The position numbers were made by a program, and so were the translations under genes. A stretch of DNA of 64,000 nucleotides. Source: Liolophura sinensis. Taxonomy: Eukaryota; Mollusca; Polyplacophora; Chitonida; Chitonidae. Position 1 is the first letter of the stretch. Each line of letters opens with the position of its first letter. The notes under the pieces are model-generated. The model saw only the letters and a list, made by a program, of their open reading frames with translations, ran no database searches and was not told the origin of the DNA. This document shows, piece after piece, positions 5,631 to 60,960 of this stretch. The stretch is taken from contig NC_088304.1 in the NCBI RefSeq assembly GCF_032854445.1, positions 22,763,704 through 22,827,703 of the forward strand, given 5' to 3'.

Positions 5631-5631
5631 C

Positions 5632-6231: not shown

Positions 6232-6734
6232 TTTAAGATCGGTGCACAGGAGAACTTAAGAGAAAACTGTAGTTTAAAGCTATTTTACGTCCCAAAGAAG
6301 AAGTTTTTTCAACTTTCATATGTTATGACATTATGTACATCCTAACCTGCATATTGAGAAAAAAAAAAACATTTCATGTATCCATTAAGCTTTGCTTGTC
6401 GATCTTTACTGTCCTCACCTAAAATAGCCTTCATTAGCCTACTACATAAAACATCAATGACGCCATCATTGTATGATATGGCGGTAAACATTGGAGAGCT
6501 CGTAAAACTCCTTCCTGTCGGTATCAAGATGGTTCAAAGCTGTGGGTGCATTTGTTCTTTCCTTTATTACGCCACAATTGTCGGTTTGCGTTTGCTCATA
6601 AAACATATATGAAGTACACACTCACTGCAACGTCACAGGGGAAAACGATGCGTTCTGCTGTCATTTGGACCGCCTGTGTAGCTTTGTCCCCGAAGTTCCC
6701 ATTACTCAGTATATACTCATCGGTATATCGATAG
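6232..6734. other. intergenic spacer
   Basis: Sequence between the 30-bp minisatellite and repeat R. Only short unsupported frames are seen. Confidence 0.45.
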
Positions 6735-7060
6735 AATAAAGAGCTTACAGCATAGTAAAATCAGAGCAAGGGTGACAGGGTGATAATTGGCTGATGGTCA
6801 AGGTAACTCATTGAAATACAGCCTCTTGTGAGTTTACCTCAGAATTTTGTTATTGGATTTTATTCTAACTGTCCATATAAATATTAGCAAGTTAACCTCC
6901 TTCTAATACATGGCTTAAGCAGAATCAGGTAAAAAAAATATACAGTGGTATTAATTGCAATGTATTACATGTCATTGGTTTAGAAATACTCCAAATGCTG
7001 TGTTGTCATCACATATAACATACAATCACATTAAAACTATTCAAATGGACATAGCACCTG
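6735..7060 (+). repeat. repeat R, copy 1
   Basis: Diverged copy of an unclassified interspersed repeat. Shared blocks are ACAGCATAGTAAAATCAGAG, GCCTCTTGTGAGTTTACCTC, TGGCTTAAGCAGAATCAGGT and GTTGTCATCACATATAACAT, in the same order as the copies at 13095, 14680 and 53565. No open frame and no tRNA-like head is visible. Confidence 0.65.
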
Positions 7061-9845: not shown

Positions 9846-10191
9846 TTTGGCACTGTAGAACGTGTCAACAGTATTTATTCATTTGTTTTTTTAATTTATT
9901 TCATTTTATTTTATTTTTTTATGATAAACAGATTTATTTATTTGGTAAGTGAATGTTGCTTAACGCCGTACTCTAGAAGGCGGCGTTTTTATGATAAAAA
10001 GATTGATTTATTTGATAGGTGAAGGTTGCTTACCGCCATACTCAAGAAGGCGGAGGAAACTAATGTAGCACAATTTCTGATACATTTGTAGCAAACTACA
10101 GGTATAGTTGTGTGACTCTGGATCTATTCTTTAGGCACTGTTAAGATCACTCATCACTATGCTGATCATATTGTTTTATTTATTGACACAG

Positions 10192-10352
10192 GGACTTTGG
10201 GAGTAATTGGCAATGTGTTTTTCATCATCGGTCTGTTCAAATGCCGGCGAAAGAGAACTTACCACGAGGGTTTCCTGATCAATTTGGCTATTACAGACAC
10301 AGGCGTCTGTCTGACCGGTTACCCGTGGGCAGCAGCCTCTAGTTTCTCACAG
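10192..10352 (+). CDS. opsin exon: TM1 and TM2
   Basis: Acceptor TTATTGACACAG and donor CAG/GTACTT. The exon starts with two bases of a split codon, so at least one upstream coding exon must exist. It encodes TLGVIGNVFFII, the first loop FKCRRKRTYHEG and FLINLAITDTGVCLTGYP. Translation read past 10352 is intron. Confidence 0.9.
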
Positions 10353-19300: not shown

Positions 19301-21699
19301 GTCAAAACCTCTCGGTTTTCCGTGGCTTTCCAGCACTTCTATTTGCTTACTTTTCAGAAGAAATGTTTTCCTAAGGAATAATCTGAATGTTTAAGAGATT
19401 TTTCGAAGTAAATGGTTTCATGTCATAAATAGTCACTCTCCACGGCCAGGCAGCCTGAAAACACAGTTTTGGGATCCAGATCGAAATTCGCCTCCATCAC
19501 TAAAGAGCGCCTTGTACGTCCTAACTGCGCTGTGATTCCCTGTGTTCAAGTCGTTTGTCATTTTCCGGAGATTTAAATGTAGGGGCTGTATCTACGCAAT
19601 TCCAGTAAACTATGAATGTTTAAAATCCTTTTGATATATTAGGCGCCGTTCACATCAGTTTATATATACATTATTTTATTACTGAACAGACCTTAAAAAT
19701 TGTACTTGTTGCCGCCTTGCTAGGCGCTCAGCTCTAAGAGGTTAGAGTAAGGAAACAGGACTGGTTGGCCGGTGTCAGTATTATGTTACTGGGTGGGGTG
19801 TCATGTCTAATGTCCTTGGCATGATACTTCAGTGGCGGCAGCACTTTGGCGGCATACGGATTCTCTCTGCCACAAGAAGACACATTATAAGTACACACCT
19901 AATGCCTCCTCGTCGTCACGCTCAGTTGGTTAGCGCGCTAGCGCAGCGTATTGATCCAGGAGCCTCTCACCAATGCGGTCGCTGTGAGTTCAAGTCCAGC
20001 TCATGCTGGCTTCCTCTCCGGCCTTACGTGGGAAGGTCTTGCAGCAACCTGCGGATGGTCGTGGGTTTCCTCCGGGCTGTGCCCGGTTTCCTCCCACCAT
20101 AATGCTGGCCGCCGTCGGATAAGTGAAATATTCTTGAGTACGGCATAAAACACCAATCAAATAAATAAACAAAATAAATCCTCGTCGTCACCCAAGCATA
20201 CATATATACATATAACTGCACTATAACAACTATATGATGTGAATCAAAGGGTAAGATGAAATTCAGAGATTGACAGATAATTACAACTGTGATATCAACA
20301 GAGTAATCAGTGCAACATGTCTAAGCTGTATACTCTCAGTGACAAAAATTTGATTGTAAAAAAAATGTCGGCCTATGTAGTTACATGAAATTAATTTTTT
20401 TATTTCTTTATTTGATTGACGTTTTACGCCATACACAAGAGTATTTCACTTCCGCGACGGCGGCGAGCATTATGATGAAAGGAAACCAGGCAGACCCCGG
20501 AAGAAATCCACGACCGTCCGCAGGTTTCTGTCAGATCTTGCCACATACTGCAGGGGAAGAAGCCAGCATGAGTTGGACATGAATGAGTCATAAATGTGAG
20601 CAATAATTATCAAAAAAGTTTGATGCTTTAACATCGCTATTTTAGGCAAAGATTATTACGTGGGCAAAAATACTTTACAACGGTATTTCCAGCAGGAGCT
20701 GGTCTCGAAATGACGACTCCACTGAACAAATGTAAAAGACTACAGTATAGAGTAAAACAAGAGCAACCAGGACAATGCTAATGCTAACAAATAGCACATA
20801 TGACCGGTGAAGTCCGGCCTCTTGTCAGTTAAGGTTGTACCCATGTTAAGGCCGATCGCTGTGGTAAGAGGTGCGCTTGAATAAAATCTCTGACTCAGAA
20901 CTGTCCGAAATTCAATTTAAGCCATTAAATACGTTAACATCTATAGATTATCGTTTTTTTTTTCAGTTTAACAAGTTCACATTATTAATCATCAACTTGT
21001 TCAAGGGGCCTCCATAATGGTGACCGCCGTCGTATAAGTGAAATATTCTTGAGTACGGCGTAAAACACCAATCAAATAAATAAATAACAATCAATTTGTT
21101 CAAATTTTACATTCTGGTCTACATGTATATGTATTGGCTTATATATGTGCATTTCGATTTCGTTCCTGCAGGTATCCTTCTTAGTTGTGATGAGTTTCCT
21201 TATCTGCTGGATGCCTTACGCAGTATTTTCTGTGGTGTACGCTTTCGGGGACCACGAACAAGTACCTATAGAGGTCACAGTCATACCTGCCTTGATGGCC
21301 AAGGCTTCCAGCTTCCTCAATCCCATTATATACATGGTCGCTTCGAGAAAGTATAGGGCGATGTTAAATGTGTGCATCTGCCGTAGAGACGTCTCGGTGA
21401 TGGACCGGACGCCAGTCCCACCGGTCATCCAGAACGCGCATGCGCGGAATGCCCTCACGCCAGTCTCTCCTGGTTTGAGAGACGGTCTCACTCCTGCATC
21501 CAGTCCAGTCCAGATGCGCGGTCCACAGGTGGTATTCGTTGTTGAACATGGTTCAAATGTAGGTAACACCTACCCCAGTATAAATGGCAGCAGTTCTTTG
21601 GGGAAAGGGTCGACAAAACCACCGCGTCATCTCTCTACACATTCTCATGGTGTTTCTAGTTTCCACAATATTCAGTCTGATCCCAGTGTGGCTATATGA
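10192..21699 (+). CDS. opsin, neuropsin/peropsin group (5' incomplete)
   Basis: Light-sensing seven-transmembrane receptor. Exons 10192-10352, 11135-11264, 16129-16250, 17989-18201 and 21172-21699 join in phase (0, 1, 0, 0) to give 383 residues from the start of TM1 to the stop. Visible hallmarks: GN in TM1, NLAITD in TM2, the Cys pair bridging TM3 (11159) and loop 2 (17995), DRF in place of DRY, CWMPY in TM6, the retinal-binding Lys in MAKASSF (21301-21303) and NPIIY in TM7. The position equivalent to bovine Glu113 is Tyr (11168), while the Glu181 equivalent in LEPFK is kept (16239), the usual arrangement outside vertebrate visual opsins. RWIFGHTGCQWYGFCGFFFG and EPFKTSCTLDW resemble OPN5 most; NLAITD..GYP also recalls peropsin. 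The cytoplasmic tail is about 110 residues, has a likely palmitoylated CICRR and is Ser/Thr/Pro-rich. The N-terminal exon is missing. Opsin identity is secure; the subgroup is inferred from remembered family motifs. Confidence 0.9.
10550..10832 (+). repeat. SINE-C, tRNA-like head with distinct tail
   Basis: Lies in the intron after the first visible opsin exon. A B-box-like CCGGGTTCAAGTCCGAG is followed about 200 bases on by CCGAAATAACGCTGAAAGCG and ACGTCAAAC, a tail unlike SINE-A. Only one copy was recognised in this window, so family status rests on its SINE-like structure. Confidence 0.55.
10915..11055 (-). repeat. SINE-A, head-truncated
   Basis: Reverse-strand tail and body blocks (GTGTTTTACGCCATACTCAA, then CGGCGGCCAGCATTGTGGTG) end about 80 bases before the next opsin exon. 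The tRNA-like head is absent. Confidence 0.85.
11135..11264 (+). CDS. opsin exon: TM3
   Basis: Acceptor TTTGCTCTGCAG, donor ACCA/GTAAGT. Encodes RWIFGHTGCQWYGFCGFFFG and ASITTLAVISFDRFTTICLQ. It contains the conserved loop Cys (11159), the Tyr at the 113 equivalent (11168) and the DRF motif (11231-11239). It ends with one base of a split Arg codon completed in the next exon. Confidence 0.93.
11990..12215 (+). repeat. SINE-A with a swapped tRNA head
   Basis: The first part, TTTGGTGGCCTAATGGTTAC and AGCGTCCGCCTC, is not the usual SINE-A head (GGCTCAGTTGGTTAGCGCGC). It resembles the tRNA-like segment at 60963-61060 instead. From GTGAGTTCAAGTCCAGCTCA on, it is normal SINE-A with an ATAAAATAAA-like tail. 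GTTCAAGTC occurs twice in tandem at the junction. Confidence 0.75.
12265..12455. repeat. repeat D (SINE-like), copy 1
   Basis: Shares blocks with 19709-19906: GGCGCTCA, AGAGCAAGGAAAGAGGACTG, GGGGTGTCATG, GGCATGATTCTTCAG, and CACACCTAATCACTCCTCGT. Non-coding, in the long TM3-TM4 intron of the opsin. Confidence 0.7.
12955..13095 (+). repeat. SINE-A, 5' truncated, with poly-C
   Basis: Diverged SINE-A 3' half, with ACCATAATGTCTGCGGCCAT preceded by an expanded C run at about 12996-13010. Tail AAATAAATAAGT. The C run may be an assembly weak point. Confidence 0.75.
13096..13330 (+). repeat. repeat R, copy 2
   Basis: Contains GACTACAGCATCAATAGCAA, AACCAGAGCAGCGACGACAG, AAATGGTCACACGTAATCGG and AGCGGAATTAGGTAAAACAA, in the family order. 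Confidence 0.7.
13445..13650 (-). repeat. SINE-A, diverged, near full length
   Basis: Reverse-strand TTCACGCCGTACTCAAGAAC through AATGAGCTGGACTTGAACTC to GTGAGAGGCTCCTCGGTCAT. The head beyond the B box is lost into a C-rich run at 13661-13685. Confidence 0.85.
13690..14679. other. opsin intron sequence with a poly-G run
   Basis: Part of the intron between the TM3 and TM4 exons. No exon or known repeat was recognised. A homopolymer G run lies at about 14297-14310. Confidence 0.5.
14680..14995 (+). repeat. repeat R, copy 3
   Basis: One of the better-preserved copies: GACTTACAGCATGGAGTAAA, TAGTCACACGTAACCGGTGA, GACGGCCTCTTGTCAACTTA, TGATGTTAATTGCATTTTAT, GGTCTAGAATTACTCAAAAT, and TGTTGTCATCACATTTAACA. 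Confidence 0.75.
15025..15200 (+). repeat. about 25-bp tandem repeat
   Basis: Five to seven degenerate units of CACTTTTAATGTTCCTAAGG followed by CA. Within the opsin intron. Confidence 0.8.
15548..15847. repeat. 50-bp minisatellite, six copies
   Basis: Six head-to-tail units of 50 bases beginning GTATTCCGTGACGTTCTCGT at 15548, 15598, 15648, 15698, 15748 and 15798. They are very similar, differing at a few sites (GAGGCA/GAAGCA/GAAGCC). 50 is not divisible by 3, so the open frame read on the reverse strand changes register at each unit and is probably an artefact. Confidence 0.95.
16129..16250 (+). CDS. opsin exon: TM4 and loop 2
   Basis: Acceptor TCTGCTCCCCTAG; donor AAG/GTATTT. It completes the split Arg codon and encodes YRVDSQKKLGG, VVAVIWLYSLFWAAMPLLGW and GQYALEPFK. 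The Glu of EPFK (16239-16241) aligns with the Glu181 counterion position. The donor merges directly into a TATTTATTTATT tract that looks like a reverse-strand SINE tail. Confidence 0.92.
16251..16350 (-). repeat. degenerate SINE-A tail at the opsin donor site
   Basis: TATTTATTTATTTTTTATAT, then GGTTTTACATCGTTCTCGAG, matches the reverse-strand SINE-A 3' end in degenerate form, starting at the intron's first bases. The assignment is tentative. Confidence 0.4.
16640..16735. repeat. dispersed repeat shared with 4080-4165
   Basis: AAAGGTCAAATTTGTCAAGT and GGTGGCAGCGATGTAAAGCG match the earlier copy with substitutions. Confidence 0.5.
16740..17988. other. opsin intron, nothing recognised
   Basis: Intron sequence up to the acceptor at 17987-17988. 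Short low-complexity stretches occur (a C-rich run near 17215-17235 and an AATTT repeat near 17258-17275). Confidence 0.5.
17989..18201 (+). CDS. opsin exon: loop 2 Cys, TM5 and loop 3
   Basis: Acceptor TTGCTTTCTGAAG; donor CTG/GTGAGG. Read in the frame starting ACT TCG TGT it gives TSCTLDWHARGTGGYELVIF, LFVCIIGLNVLIIGCSYGGI and a basic third loop (LRKRWKQ, SSRRAEKK). The Cys of TSC (17995-17997) pairs with the TM3 Cys. A longer frame through this exon in another register is spurious. Confidence 0.92.
18283..18575 (-). repeat. SINE-B, near full length
   Basis: Starts with a GTGA repeat, then GCTTGAGGTTTAACGTCGTA and TCAGTCATATGACGACGAAG. It ends in the reverse complement of the head region seen at 28505-28630 (CTCTTTTAAGGTCTTGGGTG). 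About 80 bases into the last opsin intron. Confidence 0.8.
18758..19020 (+). repeat. SINE-A, full length but diverged
   Basis: Complete head with A box (TGGCTCAGTTGG), a mutated B box (GAGTTTAAGTGTAG), body and an AT-rich tail. More substitutions than the copies at 31, 46, 48 and 63 kb suggest greater age. Confidence 0.9.
19021..19708. other. opsin intron, nothing recognised
   Basis: No exon, tandem repeat or recognised dispersed repeat in this part of the last opsin intron. Confidence 0.45.
19709..19919. repeat. repeat D (SINE-like), copy 2
   Basis: Shared blocks with 12265-12455: AGAGTAAGGAAACAGGACTG, GGGTGGGGTGTCATG, GGCATGATACTTCAGTGGCG, and CACACCTAATGCCTCCTCGT. It is interrupted at its end by the SINE-A copy that follows. 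Confidence 0.75.
19920..20178 (+). repeat. SINE-A, full length, 13-bp target duplication
   Basis: Begins at the head (GCTCAGTTGGTTAGCGCGCT), carries an intact B box (GAGTTCAAGTCC) and ends AATAAATAAACAAAATAAA. It is flanked by the exact direct repeat TCCTCGTCGTCAC (19907-19919 and 20179-20191), showing insertion into repeat D. Confidence 0.95.
20400..20582 (-). repeat. SINE-A, head-truncated
   Basis: GTTTTACGCCATACACAAGA through AGCCAGCATGAGTTGGACAT on the reverse strand. It stops at the B-box region. Confidence 0.85.
20725..20860 (+). repeat. repeat R, copy 4 (partial)
   Basis: GACTACAGTATAGAGTAAAA, AACAAATAGCACATATGACC and GTCCGGCCTCTTGTCAGTTA match the 5' half of the R family. Confidence 0.65.
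21005..21089 (+). repeat. SINE-A, internally deleted, 14-bp target duplication
   Basis: Only the first nine bases of the head (GGGGCCTCC) remain, fused to the 3' third (ATAATGGTGACCGCCGTCGT onward). It is flanked by ATCAACTTGTTCAA (20991-21004) and ATCAATTTGTTCAA (21090-21103), so this is one insertion rather than two remnants. The junction falls at a CCTCC motif present twice in the full element. Confidence 0.9.
21172..21699 (+). CDS. opsin terminal exon: TM6, TM7 and tail
   Basis: Acceptor TTCGTTCCTGCAG, stop TGA at 21697-21699. Encodes VSFLVVMSFLICWMPYAVFS, the loop FGDHEQVPIEV, TM7 VIPALMAKASSFLNPIIY and a tail rich in Ser, Thr and Pro. The Lys codon for the retinal Schiff base is at 21301-21303. 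An upstream in-frame start inside the intron is not used: the polypyrimidine-AG fixes the exon start. Confidence 0.95.
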   Translation, partial: VSFLVVMSFLICWMPYAVFSVVYAFGDHEQVPIEVTVIPALMAKASSFLNPIIYMVASRKYRAMLNVCICRRDVSVMDRTPVPPVIQNAHARNALTPVSPGLRDGLTPASSPVQMRGPQVVFVVEHGSNVGNTYPSINGSSSLGKGSTKPPRHLSTHSHGVSSFHNIQSDPSVAI

Positions 21700-22707: not shown

Positions 22708-22711
22708 TTAA

Positions 22712-24214
22712 AGTGAAAGACAACAGCTGAGTAATGTTTATGTTCACTGCAAGACTACCATTCAAAGTATCTTAAACACACATTAAATATTTTTTTAGAT
22801 TTTTTTTAAACCCAGAAAAAGTTTAGTGAAACTTCGTCTTGATACGTCTTCAGCACGTCTCCATTATTGAGCAAGGTGATGTCACGTTTACTCTAGCTCT
22901 CTAACGTCGAAGTTAATTTCCGTAGTATAGTCAAAGCAGTGCAGCCTTGGGCTGATATAACCTGTGGACTTCGACGATGAAGGCCCAAATGATAGATATA
23001 GTTTTGTCGGAAAATGGACATACTGGAAGAATATTTCTTTCACTAACTGAACTGTTGATTTAGCAATCCTACTGTTTCATGTACAAGGAACTCCCGCGAA
23101 CCTTTTTAAATAGCCTAGCTGCAGATGCATGGCCTGGGCATTCCTGGTTCAGGGCCTACGTGTAGCCTCGGGGGGTGGGGAGAGGGGGAAGGTTGTGCTG
23201 GGGATTTTGACAGATTTTTAAATGTTTACAAAATTGCAATGGGATTGTTGTACAACTTGATTTATGTTCAATACTAAAACAAATGAAAATAAATGTAAGC
23301 ATAAACACCTCTGAGGCTGATCTTGGCATTCGACTGTCGCTGGATTTCTTGCTTCAGTTTTGTAGCGGTGGCTTCTAAGATGAAAACAATGCTGACCTAG
23401 TTATCGCGAACATCAGACAAAAAACCTCAGCTTGAACACGGCGTTTCAATAATTTTACTGTGTTTTATAAAAGAAAACAGAAAAAAAAAAACATCGCTCG
23501 TATGCAAGAAAGACGAAGGAAGAAAATTTAAATCTTTCAGTTGTAATAAATTCAGAGGAAAAAATTATATCATAAGATTTGATTAATTTTAAGCGTTGTC
23601 CGGCGAGATTCCGTGTTCTCATTAGCATAAACCTTCGAACGGAATATCCTTCGAATGTATTTTGCACTGACTGTTGTCTGTTGTTTAGAAACTGCTGATT
23701 AAACGTTAAAATGATCGACAAAATATGTATTTGTGGAGATGAATGCGGTTTCGGCCGAGAGGGTATGCTACTATCTGACATAATTTGTGATACCGTCGTT
23801 GAATATTATACGGCGTGTAAATCAAGTGTCTGTGGTGGTCCGTAAATGATACAGACCTATCCCACAATACTTTGTGAAATGGCCCTTCGGCTACACGTGA
23901 CTACATGGTTGTAAACGATCTCAAAAGGAAGTCTTATACAGTAGTTCTGTGTTATCTTATGTCATTTCATGGATTGAATAGGTAAAGGCTACGTCACAGC
24001 TTAGGCCGTGCAATCTGATAGCAACGTCTCAGATTGAGTAAAATTCTCAAGATGGCTGCCACGACCCACACCAGCCATTTGTGCCGTATTGTCACTTTCT
24101 TCTATATGTTATTCGGTGAAATCTCATTAAAATAATAAAGTATGACACTTTTTAGAAAACTTGAGTATCCTGCTTCCGACCGAAATATGTTTTAGCCAGG
24201 TGCTGTCTCGTCCT
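22712..24214 (+). mobile_element. TTAA-flanked inverted-repeat transposon, copy A
   Basis: Non-autonomous DNA transposon of about 1.5 kb. The left end is AGTGAAAGACAACAGCTGAG and the right end TTAGCCAGGTGCTGTCTCGT, an imperfect terminal inverted repeat whose better copy is GACAGCACCTGGCTAATG at the second locus. TTAA lies at both edges (22708-22711 and 24215-24218). The whole length aligns, on the opposite strand, with 56800-59266: examples are TCTAACGTCGAAG/CGTTAGAGGGC, TTTTATAAAAGAAAACAG and GTCATTTCATGG/CCATTCACTCC. No transposase frame is seen. TTAA would fit piggyBac-type integration, but the superfamily is inferred only from that. Confidence 0.8.
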
Positions 24215-37828: not shown

Positions 37829-40800
37829 TCACTGCATACAGCACGTTTGCGAACCGCGTAGTCGGTTCAAGTTTTGAGTCATGTGGACAGAATTGGTCAA
37901 CAGTCTGTAGCTCGACGGTCTCCGCCTTTCGCTCAGGCGTGTGTGATCTAGTTTGGCAGACAAGCGACGAAGATCAGAACTTGCGCTCGTAATCCGTGCT
38001 ATGTCTCTCTCAAGCAAAGCGCAGCCTGTGTCTAAAGTCTCACGAGAAGGCAGCTGCCCTGCGAACTCTCGTAAAGGATCGCTGAGCTCCAGTATCAAGC
38101 TGAAGATTAGCACACGCCCGTTGTCACAGCCAACCGACACCGTGCGCCCATTTTCGGCAACACAGAGTGCTGTCCCTTGGCCGTACACCAGTAGCCTCCC
38201 CTTCACAAGCCCGTCACATGAACGGATCACCAGTACCTCCTTCCTGCTTGTCGTTAGAGCACAAATGTACCTACCATCAAGAGCGAAGGCACATAGTTTT
38301 GGATCAAACCCAGACAATTTTTCCACTTTATCTCCTGTTTTCAAGTTTAATAGCTCGAGATTACTGTCCAGTGCAAAAGTAAATGTTGGCGAGAAAACTG
38401 TATCCTCTACAACGGAAGCCGGTGATAAGAACTGAGGGAAATGTCTCAAAGCACAGTGTGTTTGAAAGTCATAAATGAAAGCACTTGCAGCTGTTTCTGT
38501 TGAAAGAATCGTTGAATTCCCAGAACGGTCAATTTCCCTGGCATCAGAATAAATGAATAGCACTCGTCCATCTTTCATGGCTGTAGCATGCAGAATCTGG
38601 TCATTAGTATTCGCCTTAACCATGAGATTCTGAATGCTCAGAAAGTTTGCTTCATTTCTGTCGTTTTCACTGACAGAAGAGACAAATACATAAGACTTGA
38701 AGGCTCCTTGAGAAGCACTTTCGGTTTTGCTCGGTGAATCAGACTTTACAACACCAACCACCAAGAGGTCACTGTTTTTCTGGTTGTTGTCAACCAACAA
38801 GAGGTCACTGTTTTGGTTGTTATTGTTATTTGTATCACTGTTGACTTTCGATCTAAACTGCAGCAGAAATGGTGGAGAGACAAATTCCGCTGCGCTGAAC
38901 AATTCAGTGTAGTGCTCTATTTTTTGTTCTATATCGATTGTGACAGCCGCGTAAGAGTAAATGTGGCGCTCGTCAGGCACATCCGTAACGAACGAAACCA
39001 CACAGGAATCCTGACTAAACACCGAGAATTTCACATTAAGGGCGTGGTGAATTTTGCGGCCGGATATTGTCTCCCACAGGATGGCCTCTCTTAGGCAGCT
39101 ATCATCGGTATTAGAAACTGATCCGACATCCACTTCTGTGTCTTCTCCGAGGTCAACACAAGAGCTTGACGTGATAGCGAAACGACCATCTGGAGAGAGG
39201 GTGATATCGTTAACCTCAGAACCCTCTCTGTGCTCAAAGGAGCCGATAATCTCACCGTTACCGGCATCCAGAATCTTAGCTTCACATTGTCCCGCCGCAC
39301 AGCAGAGTATGGTGTTTGTCTGGCAGGACATAGCCAGGTAACGGACTTCGTCATCTGTGGCAGTATTCGTCAGTTTGGCATGTTCTTCCAACTTGTCCAG
39401 ATTCCAAACTTTCATCAGCCCGTTCGCCAGAAGGCAAGCAGCGAGTGAAGAGTCACTACTGGTGAAGAGACGTTCTATGGGACTTTTGGTTGAGAGCAGA
39501 ATTCTTAAAGGTTGTCCAGTCTGAGAGTCCCACACACACAAATATGTGTATCGAGACGCCACGACCAGGCAGCTGTCAGGAGTGAAGGCGGCTCCAGAAA
39601 AAACAGAAGAACGATCCATGCAAACATTTCCGGGTAACGCATTCAGAGTGTGCACCAGTGTTCCCTGCATGACGTCACAGATCCGTAAACAGTGGGCAGA
39701 TCTCACTAGCACCATGTTTTCCTTATTGTTAAGCACAAAGTCCAGGATTTCAAAGTCACGCACAAGTCTCACAGTCGAAAAACTTTTGAAAGCTAGATCA
39801 GAATTATACAAACTTAGTCGCCCAGCGTTTGACAAGATCAAGAATTTACAAGCGGCCGTAAAGAACTTGAGTTTTAGTACGATTTCACCTGTTTCGATGA
39901 CAAGTTGTCTTTCCACGAGGGGCAGAGTGTAGAGAAAGAGGGAAGTGTCTGAGCCGCACAGGAGGAATTTATCCTCCGCGCTAATGGCTACACAGCGACA
40001 GTGATGAAACAATCTGTGGATGAGTTCTCCGTTATCTACATCAAGTACAGTCGGACCTGGTCCCTTTTTTGTCGTGAACGCTAAGTAATGCTCGCCGACG
40101 ACAAGCTCTGCGATATCCTTATCACACTTTGTAGTCCACTGTTCTTGCCCAGTGTCCGTGTAGTGGGCGGATATGGTATTGTCTTGTCCCACTACACAGA
40201 CGCTGTCCCCACAGGATGTAGGGTAGAAGTTTCCCGTGGGCAGGGAGACGCCACGCACCTGACGCTGAAGGGAAAGATTCCAGAGATCAGTCGATTTGTT
40301 TGCAGGGTTTGGCACCGCGACCATGAGCCCATCAGAAGTTTGGAACCAGCAAATCTGCCTACTGTCGGTGGATAGCAGGCACTCAGATAGCAAAGGTCCA
40401 CCCGGACTTTCGTACAGCTGACAGTTGGGAATGCACGGGTTGTATCTCTGAGCCGCCAAGTCACATTGCCGAATAAGCATCCGAATGTGCTTGTATTTGG
40501 ATGAATACGGAAGCAAGCGACCTGTGAGCTCGATACCAAGAAGATTTAAGTCCAGAGCCAATGATCGACTCGCCATCTGTAATGCCACAAGTACTAGCTG
40601 TGATTCCTTATCCACACCATGTCCATAGTCCATGAATAACTCTGCTATAGGAGCTGTAGCAAGTTTGGCTCGAATCCACTCAAGGTTGCACAGTATCTCT
40701 GATTTCAACATGTCATGCCTCTCAGCCGCTGCCAGGCATTTGGGCAATGTCCGCGAAACTCTTTGATTAAACATTCTGGACGCGTCTGGCAGAATGGGAA

Positions 40801-42465
40801 TGCGCTCTCCTAGACGCTGTGGTATGACATCATCATCGCTAGGCACCTCAGAGAAAGATTCGCAAACGCTTTGTTGTCTAGTTACACCTCTCCACTGTCG
40901 AAGAAAATAATCCGATAGCACAGAGTAGAGTTTGTGTTTGGTTGAGGTCTTCCGTGTGTAACGCTCCACTGCCGCGTTGTGAATAAAGGCTTCCGTCCAT
41001 GAGAGCAGCGGTGTGCCGTCGATGACTGTAGACTTTAGGAATTTGCTAACGTCGTGTAAAAGTCGATATAGGTACCACACGGGGAATTCTCTTACTTTAT
41101 TCCTGTGCTTTGAAGGAATTCGAAGACTGTCCAAAAGTTCCTCGTCCAGCCGCAGAACGTCTGTCAACTCCTTCTGGCTCAAACCACCGTCTGCCGACAC
41201 TAGATACCCGAACGTTTTAGAGCACAGTAAATAACCGTGCCTTCTCTCCAAACGAGAAAAGAAATGACCAACGGCCTCGCTTGAAGAATTGGGAAGGTCT
41301 TCAGATTTAATGATGTCATAGGAAGCCCAGGACACCGCTTGGTTGAGCAACAGTCGAAGGAACACTGGTGTGTCGCACGTCTGGGTGGCCTGACGGAGGG
41401 ATTTCCATTGAGACGGTGTTAATGCCCTTCCAGATCGAATGATCCAGGCCTTGAGTATGTCGCTACAGGCTTCGGAGTTCAGTCCCGGTATCCTCATGAA
41501 ATATTCCGCTTGTATCTTTCGCGAGAGGCTGGATAACAGCCCAGAGGCCTCTTCAGAGACTGTGAGGATCAGTTTTAGGTTATTTGCTATCTTCATCGGG
41601 ATCCACTCCAGTAAGTGCGCATCTTCGCACGGGTGAATCTTATCAATTCCGTCCAACAGGATGACCAATACGCCGCTGAATTCCGCCTCCGTAATCAGTG
41701 TGGTGAACAGCGTCTTCAGCTGCTCACAGTCCTCGGGAATCTCACTAGGTTGCTTGCCCATCACATCGTAGATCTGCAGGCACAGCGTGAAGAGGAGGTG
41801 CCTGAGTGTCGAAGTTCCTGACATTGAGCCGCAAAAGCGGACGATGACAGCAGACTGGAGCCCAGGAAACAACTCGGCGGATGAGGATTGTACAAACCGA
41901 GCAATCTGAGCAACGATCACGGATTTGCCGACCACAGGTGGTCCGTGCAGTACCAGGCATTGATCCGTATCCGCTCCGACCAGGTATGCCTGTACGCACC
42001 GAGCAATGTCCTCCCGAATCAGAGTCGCCTCAGATATCTCTCCTGCAATACGCCAGTGGTCGCCGACTTCTTTTACAAGTTCATGGCGAAAAGCTGCCCG
42101 CTTCCTTGCACAGGTCTCGTCGATAAGTCGACGGCATGTTTGATACAGGAAACGGCTGAACGTTACTGCATACTCCTTCCGAGCACTGTTGTCGCCTAGC
42201 CCAGCTAAAGTTTTCCAAGACACGGAAAACGTCTGAAGATTCTTTGTGTCGCCCAACACCTCTGGTATCACATCGGCACAGAGATGGCTAATGGATTGGA
42301 ATGCAGCTGCGTCTATCTGACAGCTCATTGGATCTCCGTCAATATATTGCATTGCCTCCGGTGACGTCATGTCTTTATTTTTGTCTGTCAAAAACCGGAT
42401 GTAGCCAAAACATTTAACATCTGGGTGCTCACACTGTACTCCTTTCAAAACTTCAGCACCTACAA
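37829..42465 (-). CDS. NWD-like terminal exon (NACHT and propellers)
   Basis: A single 4,637-base open exon. Acceptor TGTGTTTTCCTTGCAG just upstream (above 42465); stop TGA at 37829-37831. The frame continues through the acceptor, so a start within the exon is not needed. Encodes 1,544 residues including the P-loop and Walker B. A low-complexity insert rich in Asn and Gln, with NSDLLLVDNNQ and NSDLLVVGVV, lies near 38740-38840. Confidence 0.95.
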
Positions 42466-45400
42466 CTGCAAGGAAAACACAACGTAAGAAACAATCTTCG
42501 CCTTCATGAATTTCACTTCACATATGCTTCTTTTCATCCCTTACTTAACCTTAAGTTTGCTTCGTAAAATCAGTACAAAAATTTAGATTTAGGTCTTTTG
42601 GGTTTTTTCTTTCTCTTTTTTGCATCCATCCATTTAAGAATTAGTAAGGTCTATGGATAACATAATACATTAACATAATGAAACATAATAATATATCCTC
42701 CTTCGAAGGACAGATTTTACTTACGAGAAGACGTTAGTTGTGCACATTGGTCCTCTTCAATGATTCTCAAAGAAACTGCAGAGTTTATCCCTTCGTCCAA
42801 CAACTGGATTAACTCGTCTGAATAATTTTGCCACGTCTCACGCAGGCCTGCGCATGTGAAATGAAATACAAACAGTTAATCGTATGATGAAAAAACAGAT
42901 ACAACAAGGCTAAGATTACAATACATTACGGGTAATTTGTATCCGACCACGCGTAATCAGGTTAAAGCGGCCTTTGTTCGAAATATTCCTGAAAAGCGAA
43001 TAGGATCAATAAATTCAAAAATTCCTTAATTCATAGAGCGTTGTTTAGATGAGGGATGGATGTATCATATTCGCCCTTTACTTGTCTATATTAGTAATGA
43101 TTACAAGAATGAAACGAGGAACATTTTTTATAAGCAAGTGTCTTTGCGACCACAGGTACCATGGTTATAGTTGCCAGGTCTCGCCACCAGTCACCAGTCA
43201 TGATTTGAACTGTGCGTTTCTTGAACTGTTAGAGGGGTTGCGTTATATACTAAATTACAATATAACCGACTACCATAAAAAGAGTAAAACAAGAACAGCG
43301 TTGGCAAATGGTCACACGTAACCGTGAAATACTTCCTCTTGTCAATCAGTGTTGGCTTTGCTTATGCAAATGCTTTGAAGAGCTTACTACAGGTGAAGAA
43401 ATGAATGTCTTACAAAGATCGTTAAACGATAAGGATTGAGATAGTCTGTATTGCTTTCCTAAATTGTTAAAAAAAAAATAACAATGTATTATTTATTTAT
43501 TTATTTGATTGGTGTTTTACGTACTCAAGAATATTTCGCTTGTACGACGGCGGACAGCATTATGGTGGAAGGAAACCGGGCACAGCCCAGTGGAAATCCA
43601 CGACCATCTGCAGTTGTTGTGGGACCTTCCTACGTACGGCCGAAGAGGAAGCAATGTATTAAAACCCCTGTCACTAGTTTCGAGGGATAGTATGAAAACA
43701 AAAGTTTTCTGTCGTTTCTAATTTTGCCTTGTGTGACGTCATGCAAAAACACATGGCGTCACCCACCCCTGACGTATACCAACAAATGACAAATGACATT
43801 TGACGCACTTTCACAACACATGACGTCATTCCAGCATAACCGCCTTACTCGACGTCACATCTACTTGACTCATCGTCACATACGGAAAATTGTCCAGAAA
43901 CTCCCGAAGATTTTGTTTTTGAGGACTCTTCACTTATACGAGTTAAAGTGTGTTATTCGTCGTAATTTTTTTAAACCCTAGTGTTAGCTCTGTTCCTCAA
44001 GGTATCCTTCATATCATTTTATTATTTCCCCGTAGCTTCTCTTAGGACTGAAGTAGCACTTCAATTGTGACAATTGCATAGTCCCTAGCAGCATAGTTAA
44101 GGCAGATTTGGTTACCGATAATCAAAAATTAAAGTGATGTTAAATCACTTGTCTTAAAATGAATTTAAAATGACTTGTTTTCATCACAAGTATTAAATAC
44201 AATAAAAGTAATGGTTACAACTGGTTTAAGAGTTCACAAGTTCTGCGACTGACGAAACCCAGCAATCTGAGGAACCTTTCAGCGTATAGCTGTTTGATTC
44301 GAGTAAGTGACCCAGTTAGTCAAGGACGGCTGGTCTTTAGCGGAAACAACTTATACGTGATATCCGGCTTGAAAATTGATGTTTTCTGAAAGTCATTCCT
44401 GACCAATATATGGAGAGACCTATTTTGTGCAATGCGAGAAAACTTACCCTCGCCATTGTCAACATTCCTTTGAAGCAGATATACTGGTGGTGTAACATTA
44501 GTGTTCCGCCAATACCAGGTGTCTAATAAGCTGACGTCACTTCCAGCATGTTTCAGACCTGACCTTATGGCGATGAAAGTAGCGTCTGGAATCCTGCTGG
44601 GTAACATTTGTCTGCCATATTTCATTCCGATCACGACCTACCAGAGAAAGCACACATTAAATACTCTCCACATATACTGAGACAATGGGAATTATGCAAT
44701 AATAGAATACTATAACCATTTTTGCACATTTTTCAAACAGCTTTCAACACTGAGAATAGAGCACTATCTACAAAATATATGTCTCAAAGTATTCGAACAA
44801 AGAATATCATAGATAACTATTAATTGGCGTTTTAGTCTCAACGGCTTAAAACCGTGTGGTATATCAGACAACCAGCGCGATATTGCCGGATAACCTTGCA
44901 GCTAAAGTGTGCGGTCACCATAATGTGCCATGTGCCATGTGACCATGTAGTATGGTACCGCATGTTCCACGACCATCCTATACCGTTCGGCTGATAAACG
45001 TGCGTGACGGTCACAAACTTGCCATACCTCTGAGTAGCAAACATTTCAGCTCAATTTCTTACAGCTTTTCGTCCTGGGCTTATCAGTGACCTAAGATAAG
45101 AGTTCAGAAACGCAACTTGGATATCACTGGCATCCCAGATTATAAATATGTTTCCTGAAGCCGTGTCTAAATTGCAAGCCACTGACTCAAACTAGAATTC
45201 ATCTGTCTATTTTCTTCCACTCAAAAGTATTTCTGCTTCACAAAGAATAAGTAACAAGGACGATAATCTGGGTGGCACATACCCCAAAGCTAGGACCGCT
45301 GCTTGTCCGCATACAACTCTCTAGCTCCGCTAAGCACAGGTCACGTGTCCAGGGCTCATCCAATAGGTGCTCTGGGGTTCCCTGCCGAATATCTACCACC

Positions 45401-51400: not shown

Positions 51401-54400
51401 AATTTGTACACTGGCTCTTTACTGCCGAAGAATAGGCCAACCACAATATGCCGTTTTTCCTGTTCAGCTTTTTAAACACTTGCACTTTATGACTTACGTC
51501 TTAAGTTACTTGAGGATAAACACGAGCTCAGGACTGCATATATTATGGCTATCAATATTATCGGCCCTGCGTATACCCTATATGCAGTTGTCTCCCGTGT
51601 GTCAGTATAAGTATGTAGATTTCACCATTATTACCTGCATATACAAATAAGTAAACTTTAAAAACGACGATTGCTATTGACACATAACGTTATGTAAGCC
51701 CAAGATATCCATCCCCACACTCCCCGTATACACCCTCTCTTCAAGAACAGCTGAAGTATATGCACTATATTTGCTTGCGATTATGTTCGAGTCAACAAAT
51801 ATCTCATTCAACAAAACTTATATTTGTGTCTAATGGGTAGTCAACAGAGGTTAAGTCTAGATCCTTTCCTAGACTTACCCTATCCTACATAAGATCACTG
51901 CTGTCTCCAAGTTTGCAGGTTATACGAGGTGTGTTCATGTTTCGATTCCATAAACCTTACTACCATGCACACGTGTACTTAATACTGACTATCCCCCAGA
52001 AAGAGAAAGTGGTATGACTTATTCTTTGGCACTACTGTCATATACGCAGTCATTGTCTAAAAGTTCAACCCTATTGCCGCAAGAGCACAGCGTGTGATTG
52101 ATTGGAGTGAGCCATATAGGTCAACGTCGTTATATCCGGCCAAACAGGAAGTACACATCAGTAATTATAGAACGGCCGGTATGAGATGCATACAAAGTTA
52201 AAATCACTTAGCTCACGCTCTCCTGCCATTATAGTCGGCGTACGTACCAGATGGGTAGCGATGTGGTTTATTATTGTTAAGGAATCCAGGCCTATCCGGA
52301 ATCGTCAACAAAGTCCATGAAGTCAGAGGAATCGATGGTTCCTATATATAGTATGTCCCAGATACTCTCACCGGTGGTCTAAGCACTGGATTATAATGTG
52401 ACAGTTAAATGTCCAAGACGACCTCTAGGCCTATATAATGTGTCCTAAGAATCAAATCTGATGTTGAGTGAAGAGTATACGCTGTAATAGATTTGGTGCA
52501 AAAAAATTTTGCGTTAGTCTTTGGTACTTTTAAAATCATATTCAGTTTCATTTTGACATAGTCGTCTACAGTGTTTACGAGAAATTGTCACACTGCTAAC
52601 AAAGATACAGAGAAGATGCACATAAAATCGAAACAAATTTAATTTGACAGAGTCAGAAATGGTCGTTTGTCACACGTAACCGACATTTTTATTTATGATG
52701 TGACTTTTTGTCTAGTAGAACTATGCATGTCTAGAAAATGTTCACACATGAAAAAAAGAGGTTTGTTTACAATTCAAAACAGCTCATTCGACTAAAATGT
52801 GCTTTAGGTGACCAGGCTGAGCCACATTTGGTCACCCTCCAGCCTCCAATGAATTTCCGTGTACAAGGCGCTAAACCACAATAAAATAAGTAAACATAAC
52901 ACTAAAATAAGCTGGTATCACCAGCGAGATAACGGTATACGTCATTGAAGCCCGAGTAGCCATTGGGATTTATTCATTCGATCGGTGTTTCAAGCCGTAC
53001 ACAAGATTATATCACTTATACCATGGCGGCCAGTATTATGGTGGGAGGAAACTGGGCATAAGCTGGGAGACACCCACGACCTTCCGCAGGATGATGTCAG
53101 ACCTTCATATTAGAACGAAATGATTGGCCTACATCAAAGACATCAGACTGCTCCTGCACGCATCCCAACGGGGTTGTCATTTTAAAACAAGGAAATACGA
53201 GCGATGTTCAGTCACAAATTGTTTTAACAGTATGAATGGCCTAAATAAAGACATCAACTGAGATATGCACAGACATCTATCTGTTCTTGCATCCTCATGA
53301 ATTTGCCATTCTAAAAGCAAAGCTGTGGTTACGAAACTGCATAGCGTATCTCATAGAAGATAATGTCTATTCGGTATCTCAAAAGCAAATGTATTAAGTA
53401 GACAACATCTCCATTTGAGCGCAAAGATAAAGGCAGGTAAATTTCTATAAAGAAAGAAAATCATTTTGCTCTCATCAGTCGTGTCAACATAGTTTCAGTA
53501 TTGCCATAAAATACCAAGGTATACACGTAATTGAAGACCTGCAGGTCAAGGGATAACGTTAATACATAATTAAGACCTACAGTGTACGGCATAGACAGCA
53601 AAACCAGAGCAGCGACGTCAGTGTGATAGCTGGCAAATGATCACACGTAACCGGTGAAATACGGTCCCTTGTCAGCTTACTTCAGTTTGGGGTTTATTCT
53701 AACTGTTCATGTAAATGCATAAATAGTTGCAAATTACACGCCCCTTAGCACCCTGGCTTAAGCAGAATTAGGTAAAAAAATGCAGTGATGTTAATTGCAC
53801 AGGTCTAGAATTACTCGAAATGCTGTGTTATCACAACACACGATCGCGAACTGAAAGTCTTTCAAATAGCACCGAGGCCTTATAGTTGATCGTTGGATTT
53901 GACCAGTCATTGACCAAAAGAATAAAGTGTAAAAGACCTCAAGAGAAAATGGAGTTGTTTCCTGGAACAAGTGGAACAAGTCTTTAGGTTCTTTATAGAG
54001 AAAGAAATGTTTCGGATGATAGGATACATCCTGTAGAGGAGGATTGTTAGTCAGCGTCATTCATTACCAAAGTCTAAATAGATTTATTTCCAACTCTGTG
54101 TGAGTGGTTAAAACGTCCTCCTGGTGCAGCAGGAAATCCGCCTTCCATCCCTATATATTTCAGTAAGTCCTAAAACGTTAACAGTTGTAATTCCCTCACA
54201 TCCTGGCTTGGAGGGTAATTCTGGTCAAGCAATGGTTCTCAGTTGTCTGTGCAGAACTTTATGTCTCAAGCCTTTGGTACGGAGTTCTGGTGATTAAGCA
54301 AAATACAGCAAATTGAGATTGGGGTTCAACTTGTATACGCAGTCTTGATATGACCGACAAAATGTTGAAACCGACGTATCCAACCACCCACCCACCTAGT

Positions 54401-57400
54401 TTGTAGTCAACATGCATGCATTTATCAATCAAGCCGAACTAATTTGTTCTTAAAGGCAAAGAAAACCATGGAAGCCGAATGAGGTCATCGAGGCCCCCGG
54501 CACGAAGGCGGAGCAAATGTCGCGCGAACGCTACCGTCACCGTGCAACGAGGCGATAGGACAAGGACGGTCACTACTGATGAAGAGCAGTAATCTGGAGC
54601 GCAGCCCCCTGAAAGAAATTGACGTGTTTGTTAGGGACATTCTTAAACCTTGCTCCACACTCATAAAATGGACAAAGTTTCTCTCAAGTTGTATATACGT
54701 CGGCAAATAATCCAGCAACCTGCAGTTGGTAGTTGGGTATCTATCCATCCATGTCTATGTGATATCTTTCTATCTGCAACTACAATGTATGCTAATACTG
54801 AGACAATCCAAGAATCATATTGTTTACAAACAAATGGTAAGGTTTTTTTCTGTCGCTATTTTGTAATATGGAATTAAAACAAGTCTAATTTTAGGCTAGA
54901 CCACAGACACTCCGCATATTGTGTGTAACTTACATCTGACGTAATGAAGACACAGGAAACGCCTGGCTGCACGGTTGACTTACTGGCATGAGGTTGCTCG
55001 AAATCTTGCTTCAAACTGTGCAACCCTATGGGATTAGAAATATAATGAACTATATACCAACATATAGGTATTCCTGATTACTTAAAAATCATTTTAGAGT
55101 CGGCAACCTTGAATACAGGATTTTTTTTTTTTGAAACATTTGAGTTCAAATTATCAGGCTATGGGCTTCTTTAACATATGCTGTAACTCGGGCACCTGTA
55201 AAAGGTATCAAAATTTCCTTGTAATAGGGCCAAAATATCCAGTTTAAAATGCTAACGCGATCAATATGACAGCACTAGACGGAGTACTTGCCCCAGGCAT
55301 AATGAACTCGACACGATGATCAATGCTGACCATGCACGATAATGATGATCCAAGTGAGCCGTGCGAATCATACTATGTGTTTCAGCTTAGAGTGGATTTG
55401 TTATGTAAACCAACATTATATACATCGGCTCAGGTATACAGGCCACTGCACAGCCGCATGTACATATAGCATCACATCCGGATAGGGAGCCTGTCCTCCC
55501 TGGCCGAGAGGGGTTAGAACCCCAGCACGGCGCGAATGCCTCTCACCAATGCGGTCGCAAATTTGAGAGCCCCAGTCCATGGAAGATATATTCCATTTAC
55601 TCACTGGTACTGTACAGTGTGCTAGTTTAGTGCAAAACACGGATGGTCGTGGGGCTCTGCCTGGTTTCCTGTCAACATAATGGTGGCCGCCGTGGTAACA
55701 GTGAAATATTCTTGAGTACGGCGTAAAACACCAATCAAATAAATAAATAAATAAAAAATCCTGATAAGAATGACACTCAACCAAAACAAACACGTGTTTG
55801 CTCAGTCATAACAACGCGCCGGATATACGTTATATACAAGGGTCCGCACAACCACAGCCTGTCAATAGTCAGATATAGGCTTATAGGGTGCCGTTCAGGA
55901 ACACGTTCCTGTCTAAAAGAACCCCCTTGCATGCATGCAACTACATAGATGGTAAGTCGTCTCCCTGTAGCGCAGTTTTGCGATAAGCCTGTTCATCGTG
56001 ACAGATGCTGCGCGGAATGACGAGAGGGCTTCCCAAGGATGTGATTCTAAAGTTGCTATACGAACGGTAGCCGCGGGGCATGCTAGAGCAGGACCAATCG
56101 GCTTCTCAACAATGCGATATCTGTGAGTTCGCGTCCGGCCAAGCTGTCTTCCCCTCAGTTCAGGAGTCGCATGCACGTGGAAAGGCCTGCTAGCAACATG
56201 CACGGACGTGCGTTTTCCGCTGACTCCCCAGTTTCCTACTACCGTAATGTTACTGCCGTTCTTTCAGTAAAATATTCCTGGATACGGCGTAAAACACCAA
56301 TCATAAAAATACATATGTAAATAAATAAATACAAAGCGTACCATGTGAAATTCTACTCGTCAGAAGATAAAATGGTTTTGGAACACTTTTAATATTTTAA
56401 ATTATATAACTGTACTTTGATAAGAGGCCACTAGTCCAGATATCATTACACATGGCGGTTGGAGTTGGAATATATCCAATTTCCTCCAGTTTTATGCTTG
56501 TGTGGGTTTGCTAGTGATGATACATTGGGGCACCTATCTGGGATTGATAGCTGAGACGACTGTGAGTACACACAGACACATTATTTGGCGGATACGGCAT
56601 TAGTGTATTGAGGATATGTGAAGTAAAGAGGCGTTCTAGGTAAGCTTATGGAACAAGACAGAGCTGTGACAGTATGGGGTGTAACACCTGAGCAGTGACG
56701 GCTGTGTGATACCGATAAACTGGGTCCGCAAATGATCACACGCAACATGTGAAATCCGGCTCCCTACCAGGTTACGTCAGTTATAGGGTTTTATTTTAAG
56801 ACAGCACCTGGTTAAAACATATTTCAATCGAAAGCAGGATTCTTAAGCTTTCTAAAAAAATATCGTATTTTATTATTTTAATGAGATTTCAACGAATAAC
56901 ATGTAGAACAAAATGTCAGTACTGCACAAATGGCCGGCGTGAATCGAGGCAGACATCTTGAGAATTTTACCCAATCAAACACGTTGCTATCAGATTGAGC
57001 GGCCTAAGCTGTGACGTAGCCTTTACCCATTCACTCCATCAAGAGACATATGACAGCACAAAATTACTGCATAAGGCATCGTTTTGAGATCGTTTACAAC
57101 GATTTAGTTACGTATAGCCGAGGGGCCATTTTCAAACTGTTCACAGATCTGTATCATTTACGGATCACCACAGACTTAAAATTAGTTGATGCTGCTACGA
57201 TAAGCTATTTTTATTGGCCGTGTAATATCTGCCGTGTTGATTTCACCGTTTAGTTAGCAGTTTCTAAATAACACATTTCAGAGTCAGTGAAAAATTAATC
57301 GGGGATGCCAAAAGTTTGTGGGAAGGAGAAGACGGCATCTCACCGGACAATACTTAAAATTAATTAAATCTTCTAATATATACCTCAAGTTGATAAATTA

Positions 57401-60400
57401 TAAATAAAGTCAGCGCCAAAATCCGCTGTGAGCGACTCCATTTTGCTTAAGAACTAGTCCTGAAGTCTTCTGTGTTAGGAGGAGAATTGCCGTCGGAAAT
57501 CTCCGAAGTGCAGTTCGTACATTTCTGGTTCCCAGAACGTGGCGAACAGTACAGTTCGTTTTCCGTTTGACGATCGGGAAACCGGAATGTTGGACGTACG
57601 TTCCGAGTTTACACGAACAAGCCGGCAGTTTTAACGATTCTCATTGGCTGAGAGGCAACACATTCCCAGCATAAATTACAGGGTGTTAAAGATGGAGGGC
57701 GCGATGGAAGCAGCGACTTATGCAAGCTTTGCCGTTTTCAGACTTTACGTGTATCGCGATATTCCAATATCGCGGAAAAATCGCAAAAAAAATAATGCAA
57801 CAGGCACCACCAGATATAAAAAAAAAAAAAATGCGCTCTTTTCAGCCTATAGTGTCATGTTTTTAAGTTTTCTTCTCCTCTACCTTTGTCTTGCATACCA
57901 GGGATGTTTTTTTTTCTGTTTTCTTTTATAAAATACAGTAAAATTCTTGACACGCCGTGTTCAAGCCGAGTTGCTTTCCTTGAAGTCTGCGATAGATAGG
58001 TCAGCACTGATCTCATCTTAGAAGCCACCACCACAAAACTGAAGCATAAAATTTAGCGACAGTTGAATGCCTAGATCAGCCTCTGTCGTGCTAAGATTTA
58101 TTCCCATTTGTTTCAGAAATGAGCATGAGCCTAGTTGCACAACAATCTTATTGTAATTTTATTAATATTTAATAGGGGTCAAAATCGCCAACACAACCCC
58201 TCCGAAGGCTACGAACCAGGAAGAACACGGGCGTGCATCTTTAGGCCACTTAAGCCTGGCGCACACGAGAACTTGCTGAGCTATCGATCACGAGAGGTGG
58301 TCAGCGCAGCAACTTTAACTCAACACTTACTTCACTGCACACGGGGTGCATTCGTTTCTGCATATTTTTGCTCTAATATACCGGGTGACCCTCAACTATC
58401 CCACGTGAGTGCTCAAAATGGCGGACCACGAAACGCTGGAAGAAGAGTTGCGTTTACTTCTGCTGTTATTACGTCGCCGTCGACGCCGTTGGAATGCATT
58501 TTTTCGAAAAAAACTGGACTAGATCTCTGTTTTTAAATTCTACCGTGTTCACGGCAACCAAACTATGGTAGTCCTGCCACAGCTCAACGAAGTTATCATC
58601 CAAAAGGGCTTCATTCACGAGGTGTTCAATGCTGGCCATGCTGCTATGATACGTGCTACGATAAGCTATTTTTATTGGCCGGCTGAGTTTTCCAGCTCAG
58701 CTGTCGGCGCAGAGAGGTCGCACACGGTAGGAATTTGACCTCTCGTGGCACAATATATCAAACACGATAGATACTTTCCTCACTGCCTCTCGTGCCGAAA
58801 ATCTCACTAATACTTCGCCGCACACGGGGGAAAGAGCTCAGCTGCTTGCCTCTCGTGGTCGATAGCTCAGCAAGTTTCTCTCGTGTGCGCCAGGCTTTAA
58901 ACTGTAAAAGATATAGCCGGGTTACTGTATCAGCAGTTCAAGCAGAGGAAGAAATATCCTTCCAGTATGTCAGATTTCCAATAAAGCTGTTTATCACTTG
59001 GACCTTCAGTGCCGAAGCCTTTCATCTGCCCTAGGCTATACTGCTTTGACTATAATACGGAAAAAAAAACGTTAGAGGGCTAGAGTAAACGTGACGTCAA
59101 CTTGCTGTCGATAATGGAGACGGGTTGAAGCTGTGTCAAGACGAAGTTTCACTGAACTTTTACAGGATTGAAAAAAAATCTAAAAAAATATTAAATGGCG
59201 GTTTAAGATACTTTGAATGGTAGTCTTTCAGTGGACATGCACATTAGCCAGGTGCTGTCTTCCACTTTAACTTACGGTCCGCCTGGCACCATGGCCTAAG
59301 CAGAAATAGTTAGTCATGCGTGGTGTACTTTGATAACATTTAAACTGGTACATTTAGTTTGAATGGAGAAATGTAGTAACCAGAAGAGAATACAGTGTAC
59401 ATGAACATCCACTGTTGCACTATGTGCCTGAACAACAGTAATTAGTCGATGGTAATTAATTAAACTTAAGCAGGCACCTGTTTAGGTAATAGAGAAGATG
59501 TATGTTAAGTTCCACGCCAAAAATGCAGTATGCTAAAAGCTAAATATAGGGCAAAGCACTGTTACACAAAGACCTAAATGGGAGTAATTGGGAAAATAAT
59601 AACCCGATTGCCATTAAACTTAAGCATGCACAAGTTTAGATGATGGACAATGTGTATGGCAAGTTTCATCAAAATCAGCGCCGTAGTTTGAGAGGAGATG
59701 CATGGGCAAAATTGGAAAACAAGCATGCAAATGTCCAGGTGATAGGCATCGAAATCGCGCAGTAGTGTCTACAGACAGATGGACAGACAGGCAGGGTGAT
59801 TCCAGTGTACCCCCTCCCCCTTCCTAACTTCCTTGAGGGGGTTTTATAAAGGGAAATGTATGACATAGGACTATGTGTTCATCATGGGAATTTAGAGTGA
59901 ACTATTTTAACAAATCGGATCGTCAATGGCTTGTTATCGAGACTCAGACATTTTGCAAATTTGGTCAATGTGGTCTAAACAACCTCAGGCTATTGTCCAA
60001 AATGCAAATAACATGTGGTTACGTGTCCACGATCAAAATCTGAAGTAAACTACCAAAACGAAACGTCACGTCAACTTTGTGTTATAAGTAAAGAGTTGTT
60101 CTTGGACCTGTCCCTCAAATATGGTGCATGCTGACCACCGTAGATTTCTGTATGCATATAATACAGGGAAGTCGTGTAACCACAGTTAATAAAGAAATCT
60201 CACTTATCACATATGTTTTCTGTCAATCTTTAACCGCTTGTTGTCTCACTGAACGGTTACATATGTTTTCTGACAAGATTTACTTATCAGTGATGTTTAT
60301 TTACATTACAATGCAATTTACATGATGTAAACGGTTAAACTGCGCGTAAAATATAATGGCGCACGCAAGCAGACGACTGGTTATAAACATTTCACTGAAA

Positions 60401-60849: not shown

Positions 60850-60950
60850 ACTGTATTTTAAATGTGATGACACCTCCGCATTTTGAGTACTTCTAGACCA
60901 TTGTATTCCGTCTGATAAGTTGTATTAAACATCCCAGCATTTTTAAAAAC
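60850..60950 (-). repeat. repeat R, copy 9 (reverse fragment)
   Basis: AAATGTGATGACACCTCCGC and ATTTTGAGTACTTCTAGACC are the reverse complement of the TCTAGAATTACTCAAAATGC and GTTGTCATCACAT end of the family. Confidence 0.65.
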
Positions 60951-60960
60951 CTAATTCTAA

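Follow-up and report, generated by a model that had tools for sequence, protein, structure and literature searches.

A nest of non-autonomous DNA transposons within an old dispersed repeat of Liolophura sinensis, with a short H-derived patch inside one of them

In this analysis, we focus on one stretch of a 64-kb window (the whole 64,000 nucleotides of DNA analysed) from Liolophura sinensis, together with its relatives in the 609-Mb genome (632 contigs) that formed the scope of all genome searches. The stretch is very probably best explained as a set of dead, non-autonomous DNA transposons nested in an old dispersed repeat, R, and carrying a short patch. Four elements, R, T, X and H, are present along with a repair patch derived from H, and the locus is richer than first described: the sequence-only reading had recognized three layers (R, a TTAA element and a Harbinger element), which is too few, as the truncated element X and the patch are also there. 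The layers are real and readable, and nests of this sort are commonplace in animal genomes; only the H-to-T patch is out of the ordinary, and it is compatible with a known repair process. The features, in window coordinates, are as follows.

56669–56799, + strand: left half of R, an old copy, ending in the TTAA target (local score 77 against the R consensus)
56796–56799, no strand: TTAA, left target-site copy of T (from the sequence and the behaviour of the T family)
56800–57188, + strand: left segment of T, lacking AGGACAA, the 7 nt with which the family end starts, from alignment of T copies
57189–57220, + strand: H-derived patch, putatively from repair (identity to two pieces of H)
57221–57370, + strand: second segment of T, with a deletion relative to the family consensus just 3′ of the patch
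57371–57879, + strand: X, a MITE copy of a TTAA-flanked family (574 bp), truncated by 79 nt at the left
57880–58252, + strand: third segment of T, whose last three bases are the TTA target of H
58250–58252, no strand: TTA, left target-site copy of H
58253–58896, + strand: H, a 644-bp non-autonomous element, probably PIF/Harbinger-like
58897–58899, no strand: TTA, right target-site copy of H
58897–59266, + strand: right segment of T with its right inverted end
59267–59270, no strand: TTAA, right target-site copy of T
59271–59316, + strand: right part of R, about 31 nt of R gone at the joint (match at 59279–59312)

R is abundant, with 4764 first-look candidates genome-wide, of which the best 40 were scored; its consensus was built from 11 other copies, and significance was taken from 2000 dinucleotide shuffles. 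Comparison of 56400–59600 with the whole window breaks at 56799, where R had been said to be interrupted, and the left half is 70.9% identical to 53600–53702, within the R copy (53565–53848) that had been proposed for this check. Against the R consensus, the left half (56669–56799) scores 77 and the right flank (59279–59312, 34 nt) scores 43, values that none of the 2000 shuffles reaches in either case (highest 31 and 27, respectively), so that the R-like blocks are related, as proposed, rather than alike by chance; the control stretches 59346–59420 and 56800–56874 score 20 and 18, which 168 and 509 of the 2000 shuffles reach. Both halves lie on the same strand and are colinear. R does resume to the right of T, as had been claimed for position 59267, but its match begins at 59279, and about 31 nt of R are absent between the halves. 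This gap was considered as a subfamily trait and rejected, as none of the 11 other R copies has the same gap (some have others). A search for the empty site of T with the joined R flanks found none among the best 40 of 472 candidates, two of the 40 matches being the window itself and 38 a different repeat that starts near 59312–59316 and is not R; the R/T empty site is imperfect because T is without 7 nt, R is without about 31 nt, and the gap is found in 0/11 other copies. That different dispersed repeat, which has internal short repeats, starts directly beside R, its first part lying at 59316–59668. Further R-like matches, some of them short, occur in the window at 434, 6731–7032, 13087–13320, 14670–14969, 20736–20830, 43300–43346 and 60850–60960, and R is therefore dense in the window.

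The boundaries of T were determined from 12 genomic loci, namely the second copy in the window (22708–24208, reverse strand) and 11 others, across which homology begins at 56798/56799 and ends at 59269–59273, TTAA included. The proposed comparison with the second copy gave a chain of matches to 22708–24208 on the opposite strand. From 20 other T copies, a family consensus of 1475 bp was obtained, with TTAA followed by AGGACAAGACAGCACC at the left end and GGTGCTGTCTTTCACT followed by TTAA at the right. TTAA stands beside the left end in 11, the right end in 13 and both ends in 7 of these 20 copies; in the nest copy TTAA is kept at either end (56796–56799 and 59267–59270), in agreement with the inverted-repeat element edged by TTAA that had been described. 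Although both TTAA copies are there, T is without the first 7 nt, AGGACAA, at its left end and has other deletions besides. Genome-wide, 771 T-type ends occur at ≤1 mismatch, as against 0 for the reversed pattern. Among the 100 of these 771 ends that were listed, facing pairs lie 0.76–1.25 kb apart, and a search by end pattern for longer T relatives yielded none 1.3–20 kb apart.

The innermost 644-base element, H (58253–58896), is flanked by TTA at 58250–58252 and 58897–58899, just as the sequence-only reading had it; the 45-base inverted repeats given there are present, with a measured length of about 46–49 bp. H occurs elsewhere in the genome with the same ends; these carry AGCCTGGCGCAC, and the family is small, with 19 end sites genome-wide at ≤3 mismatches. 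Eleven other loci were fetched and aligned, and their target sites were read by eye. Both ends are legible in eight copies, of which three (L031, L032, L033) have exact TAA/TAA duplications and five (L027, L028, L029, L030, L034) have flanking triplets that differ by one base, while in L035, L036 and L037 one of the ends is missing or changed. Removal of H and one TTA from the nest leaves GGCCACTTAAAC, where the T consensus has GGCTATTTAAAC; the H target, GGCYAYTTAAAC, is still readable despite small deletions of T on both sides. Because of local deletion or divergence of T at this place, the pairwise T alignments do not break exactly at 58252/58897, as had been expected, but end at 58198–58240 and restart at 58903–58951. 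When an autonomous partner was sought by end sequence (≤3 mismatches), all 19 of the end sites lay inside short H matches, and no facing sites more than 0.7 kb apart within 20 kb occurred among the sites listed at this threshold. An open reading frame spanning the T/H joint (58135–58533) yields nothing in Pfam at E 0.001 and is regarded as fortuitous.

The fourth layer, X, became visible through the segment 57376–57866, which matches at least 39 other places at 83–90% (best 40 of 1845 candidates); within this set, 36 of the 39 cover at least 480 of the 491 bases. In five fetched loci, homology ends at 57365–57371 and 57878–57882 and does not run on into T. These five and 20 further copies define a 574-bp element with ends AGGAGAAGAAAA, beside which TTAA stands on the left in 22/25 copies, on the right in 20/25, on both sides in 17/25 and on at least one side in 25/25; one copy, L061, has its left end gone. 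X in the nest is without its first 79 nt, and neither of its joints with T preserves an intact TTAA: at the joint with the second T segment, TT is common to both, and at the other joint the BLAST match puts the right limit of X at 57882 rather than 57879. X is an insertion in T, separate from that of H. With the T-X-T stretch as query, none of 39 non-self matches (best 40 of 2739 candidates) extends beyond X into T for more than 12 nt, and no T-X composite was found elsewhere among the matches scored.

T also contains a patch copied from an H element. A 28-mer at 57193–57220 is identical to 58654–58681 of H, and just upstream ATGCTGCTA (57189–57197, 9 nt) equals 58638–58646 of H, and the join requires that 12 nt of H be skipped, from one TGCTA copy to another. 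At ≤3 mismatches the 28-mer has 7 genome sites, of which six belong to H copies and one to the nest T (backward-read control, 0), and its best match in the 20 other T copies has 10–13 mismatches. 3′ of the patch, T restarts at GCCGTGTAATAT, with GCCG common to H, and the T stretch that follows is 76 nt long in the nest versus 135 in the consensus. The patch has the appearance of filler DNA, copied from a source about 1.46 kb distant while a break was repaired. Both pieces are exact only in the neighbouring H (1 of 12 H copies), whereas two other H copies have the 28-mer exact and the 9 nt with one mismatch; because of these single mismatches a donor in cis, the neighbouring H, would be preferred, and the patch would in that case be later than H. 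End-joining or strand annealing may have been the mechanism.

Several other explanations of these structures deserve consideration. The R pieces beside T might be unrelated scraps and T an insertion in non-repeat DNA, a reading encouraged by the short right match (34 nt), the missing 31 nt or so of R and the different repeat starting near 59316; given a right-flank score of 43 versus a shuffle maximum of 27, on the same strand as the left half and colinear with it, this is highly improbable. Just as improbable is a history of only three layers, in which a longer T subfamily would have included the segment 57371–57879 and the 28-mer from the start. Both pieces do sit inside T, and the comparison involves 20 other T copies, but X also exists independently of T, as a unit of 574 bp with TTAA at one side or both in every fetched copy, no other scored match runs more than 12 nt past the T-X joint, and the 28-mer is found in H copies and is absent from the 20 other T copies. 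More weight falls to a different source for the 32-nt patch, either another H copy or an excision event, which we consider rather unlikely but worth keeping in view: the exact 28-mer is also present in two other H copies, but the adjoining 9 nt are exact only in the neighbouring H; the patch is internal H sequence and not an end, and is therefore no excision footprint; and among comparable human insertions in transposable elements, 824 of 1136 have donors within 5 kb, according to the available part of PMC2671141. The neighbouring H accordingly remains the favoured donor. In H copy L037 (G000:C5:4616925-4617733), a reverse-complement copy of AGCTATTTTTATTGGCC is inserted beside the original, as judged by eye; the same stretch was copied in direct orientation into the nest T. 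It is doubtful, with only a small chance in its favour, that this 17–28-nt stretch inside H is a preferred template for repair synthesis; if it were, H would carry a small template-switch hotspot, seeding its own scraps nearby.

The order in which R, the TTAA element and H had been arranged holds from nesting, and divergence makes T before H clear and R before T weak. Age was measured as K2P distance to the family consensus, with a leave-one-out consensus for the other copies. The nest copies lie at 0.284 for R (154 sites), 0.115 for T (1224), 0.059 for H (635) and 0.050 for X (480). For the other copies, the medians are 0.104 for R (range 0.076–0.284, 11 copies), 0.107 for T (0.088–0.135, 20 copies), 0.084 for H (0.070–0.270, 11 copies, all above the nest H) and 0.047 for X (0.028–0.063, 25 copies), distances that may be lowered by the choice of copies for similarity to a query, which for X and H was the copy in the window. 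L076 (124 bases) was not used, and L021 and L038–L043, which re-cover known places, are outside the family counts. Divergence supports T being older than H and X. It only weakly suggests that R is older than T: the R and T medians are about equal, so the difference comes from the nest copy, which may belong to another R subfamily, and R before T therefore rests mainly on nesting. An order between H and X was considered and set aside, as they lie side by side rather than nested and differ by 0.059 versus 0.050 with standard errors near 0.01.

Regarding family membership, Kolobok elements have TTAA with RR ends, unlike piggyBac, and T2-MITEs have a terminal AGGRR, as described in the available portions of PMC6004289 and PMC9587614. 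X shows TTAA duplication and a consensus end AGGAG on both sides, in keeping with AGGRR, and fits a Kolobok/T2-like MITE; T, the TTAA element that the sequence-only reading had left unclassified, with TTAA duplication and ends AGGAC and AGTGA, in which RR is present and the full AGGRR absent, may more tentatively be placed there too. Both would move by a transposase supplied elsewhere. T and X could instead be piggyBac derivatives: piggyBac likewise targets TTAA, and the genome contains at least 117 matches to piggyBac-type transposases, so the choice between Kolobok and piggyBac rests on the ends. Ends of piggyBac are usually of the CC form, and neither T nor X has ends other than RR. Their starts, AGG or AGT, carry the feature that separates Kolobok from piggyBac in the accessible text of PMC9587614, and a piggyBac origin is unlikely. 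H, by its TWA duplications (TTA/TTA in the nest) and its ends, fits a PIF/Harbinger-like element. The Harbinger label given earlier is thus reasonable from ends and duplications, with no transposase tied to H; it draws on the TWA site, a Tourist-like end resemblance and the presence in the genome of PF13359 (DDE_Tnp_4) transposases, with at least 152 matches (150 of 282 candidates scored), a genome-wide count that is separate from the H ends.

Taken together, a history can be proposed in which R was present first, as the nesting shows. T, a putative Kolobok/T2-like MITE, entered a TTAA in R and duplicated it, as both TTAA copies and R on both sides show; the transposase would have come from elsewhere. 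H, the probable PIF/Harbinger-like MITE, later entered a TTA inside T, and X, a second TTAA-type MITE, entered T elsewhere, its exact target being conjectural. The left end of X may then have been lost with part of T in one deletion. After the arrival of H, T would have broken at a point about 1.46 kb away from it; the repair would have cost some T sequence and brought in 32 nt of filler copied from H through template switches at short microhomology.

Elsewhere in the window, a 1562-aa open frame at 37829–42517 (− strand) has NPHP3_N, NWD1-like and WD40 matches, corresponding to a NACHT/WD40-type protein in a single open stretch. An open frame at 21088–21699 (+ strand) matches the end of a rhodopsin-type receptor (7tm_1) and another at 10116–10463 (+ strand) matches the receptor start (7tm_1) below the cut-off; the two are probably receptor gene exons. 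With the NACHT/WD40-type frame and these receptor pieces, the gene content suits an animal. Five overlapping open frames of 212–243 aa on both strands cover a short repeated unit at 5594–6345, which is a tandem array without stops. The whole 64-kb window gave 0 matches to Rfam at gathering thresholds.

The nest offers a clear worked example of insertion order read from nesting and checked by family divergence. Two families of the TTAA type and one of the TWA type are described for this genome, defined here from their own copies, and the H-derived patch is a neat case of proximal templated repair within a transposon. General views are unchanged by it.

Compared with known systems, T and X share TTAA duplications and AG ends with T2-MITE/Kolobok elements of Xenopus and others, and the X ends AGGAGAAG and the T ends AGGACAAG and AGTGAAAG parallel the Xenopus Kolobok ends AGGAGAAGG, AGGACAAGG and AGTGATACTG in the tabulated part of PMC6004289; they differ in that T, with a consensus of 1475 bp, and X, at 574 bp, are both short and non-autonomous. 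H shares 3-bp TWA duplications and long inverted repeats with Tourist-like PIF/Harbinger MITEs, and its end, AGCCTGGCGCACACGAG, resembles AGCCTTGTTCGCACTAAGCGAG, the end of silkworm BmMITE-5, which the available text of PMC2997013 gives as Tourist-like with TWA; it differs in its small family and in that no autonomous partner was found with H ends (≤3 mismatches). Human repair-mediated duplications typically draw on donors less than 5 kb away and show deletions at their joints, according to the part of PMC2671141 at hand; like them, the patch consists of a transposable element broken by DNA copied from less than 5 kb away, with a deletion and microhomology. Its 32 nt fall below the mean of 162 bp for the human proximal set in the same portion of PMC2671141 and above the 5.5-nt average insert of flies with wild-type mus308 in the available part of PMC2895639, which reports templated inserts as common in Drosophila alternative end joining.
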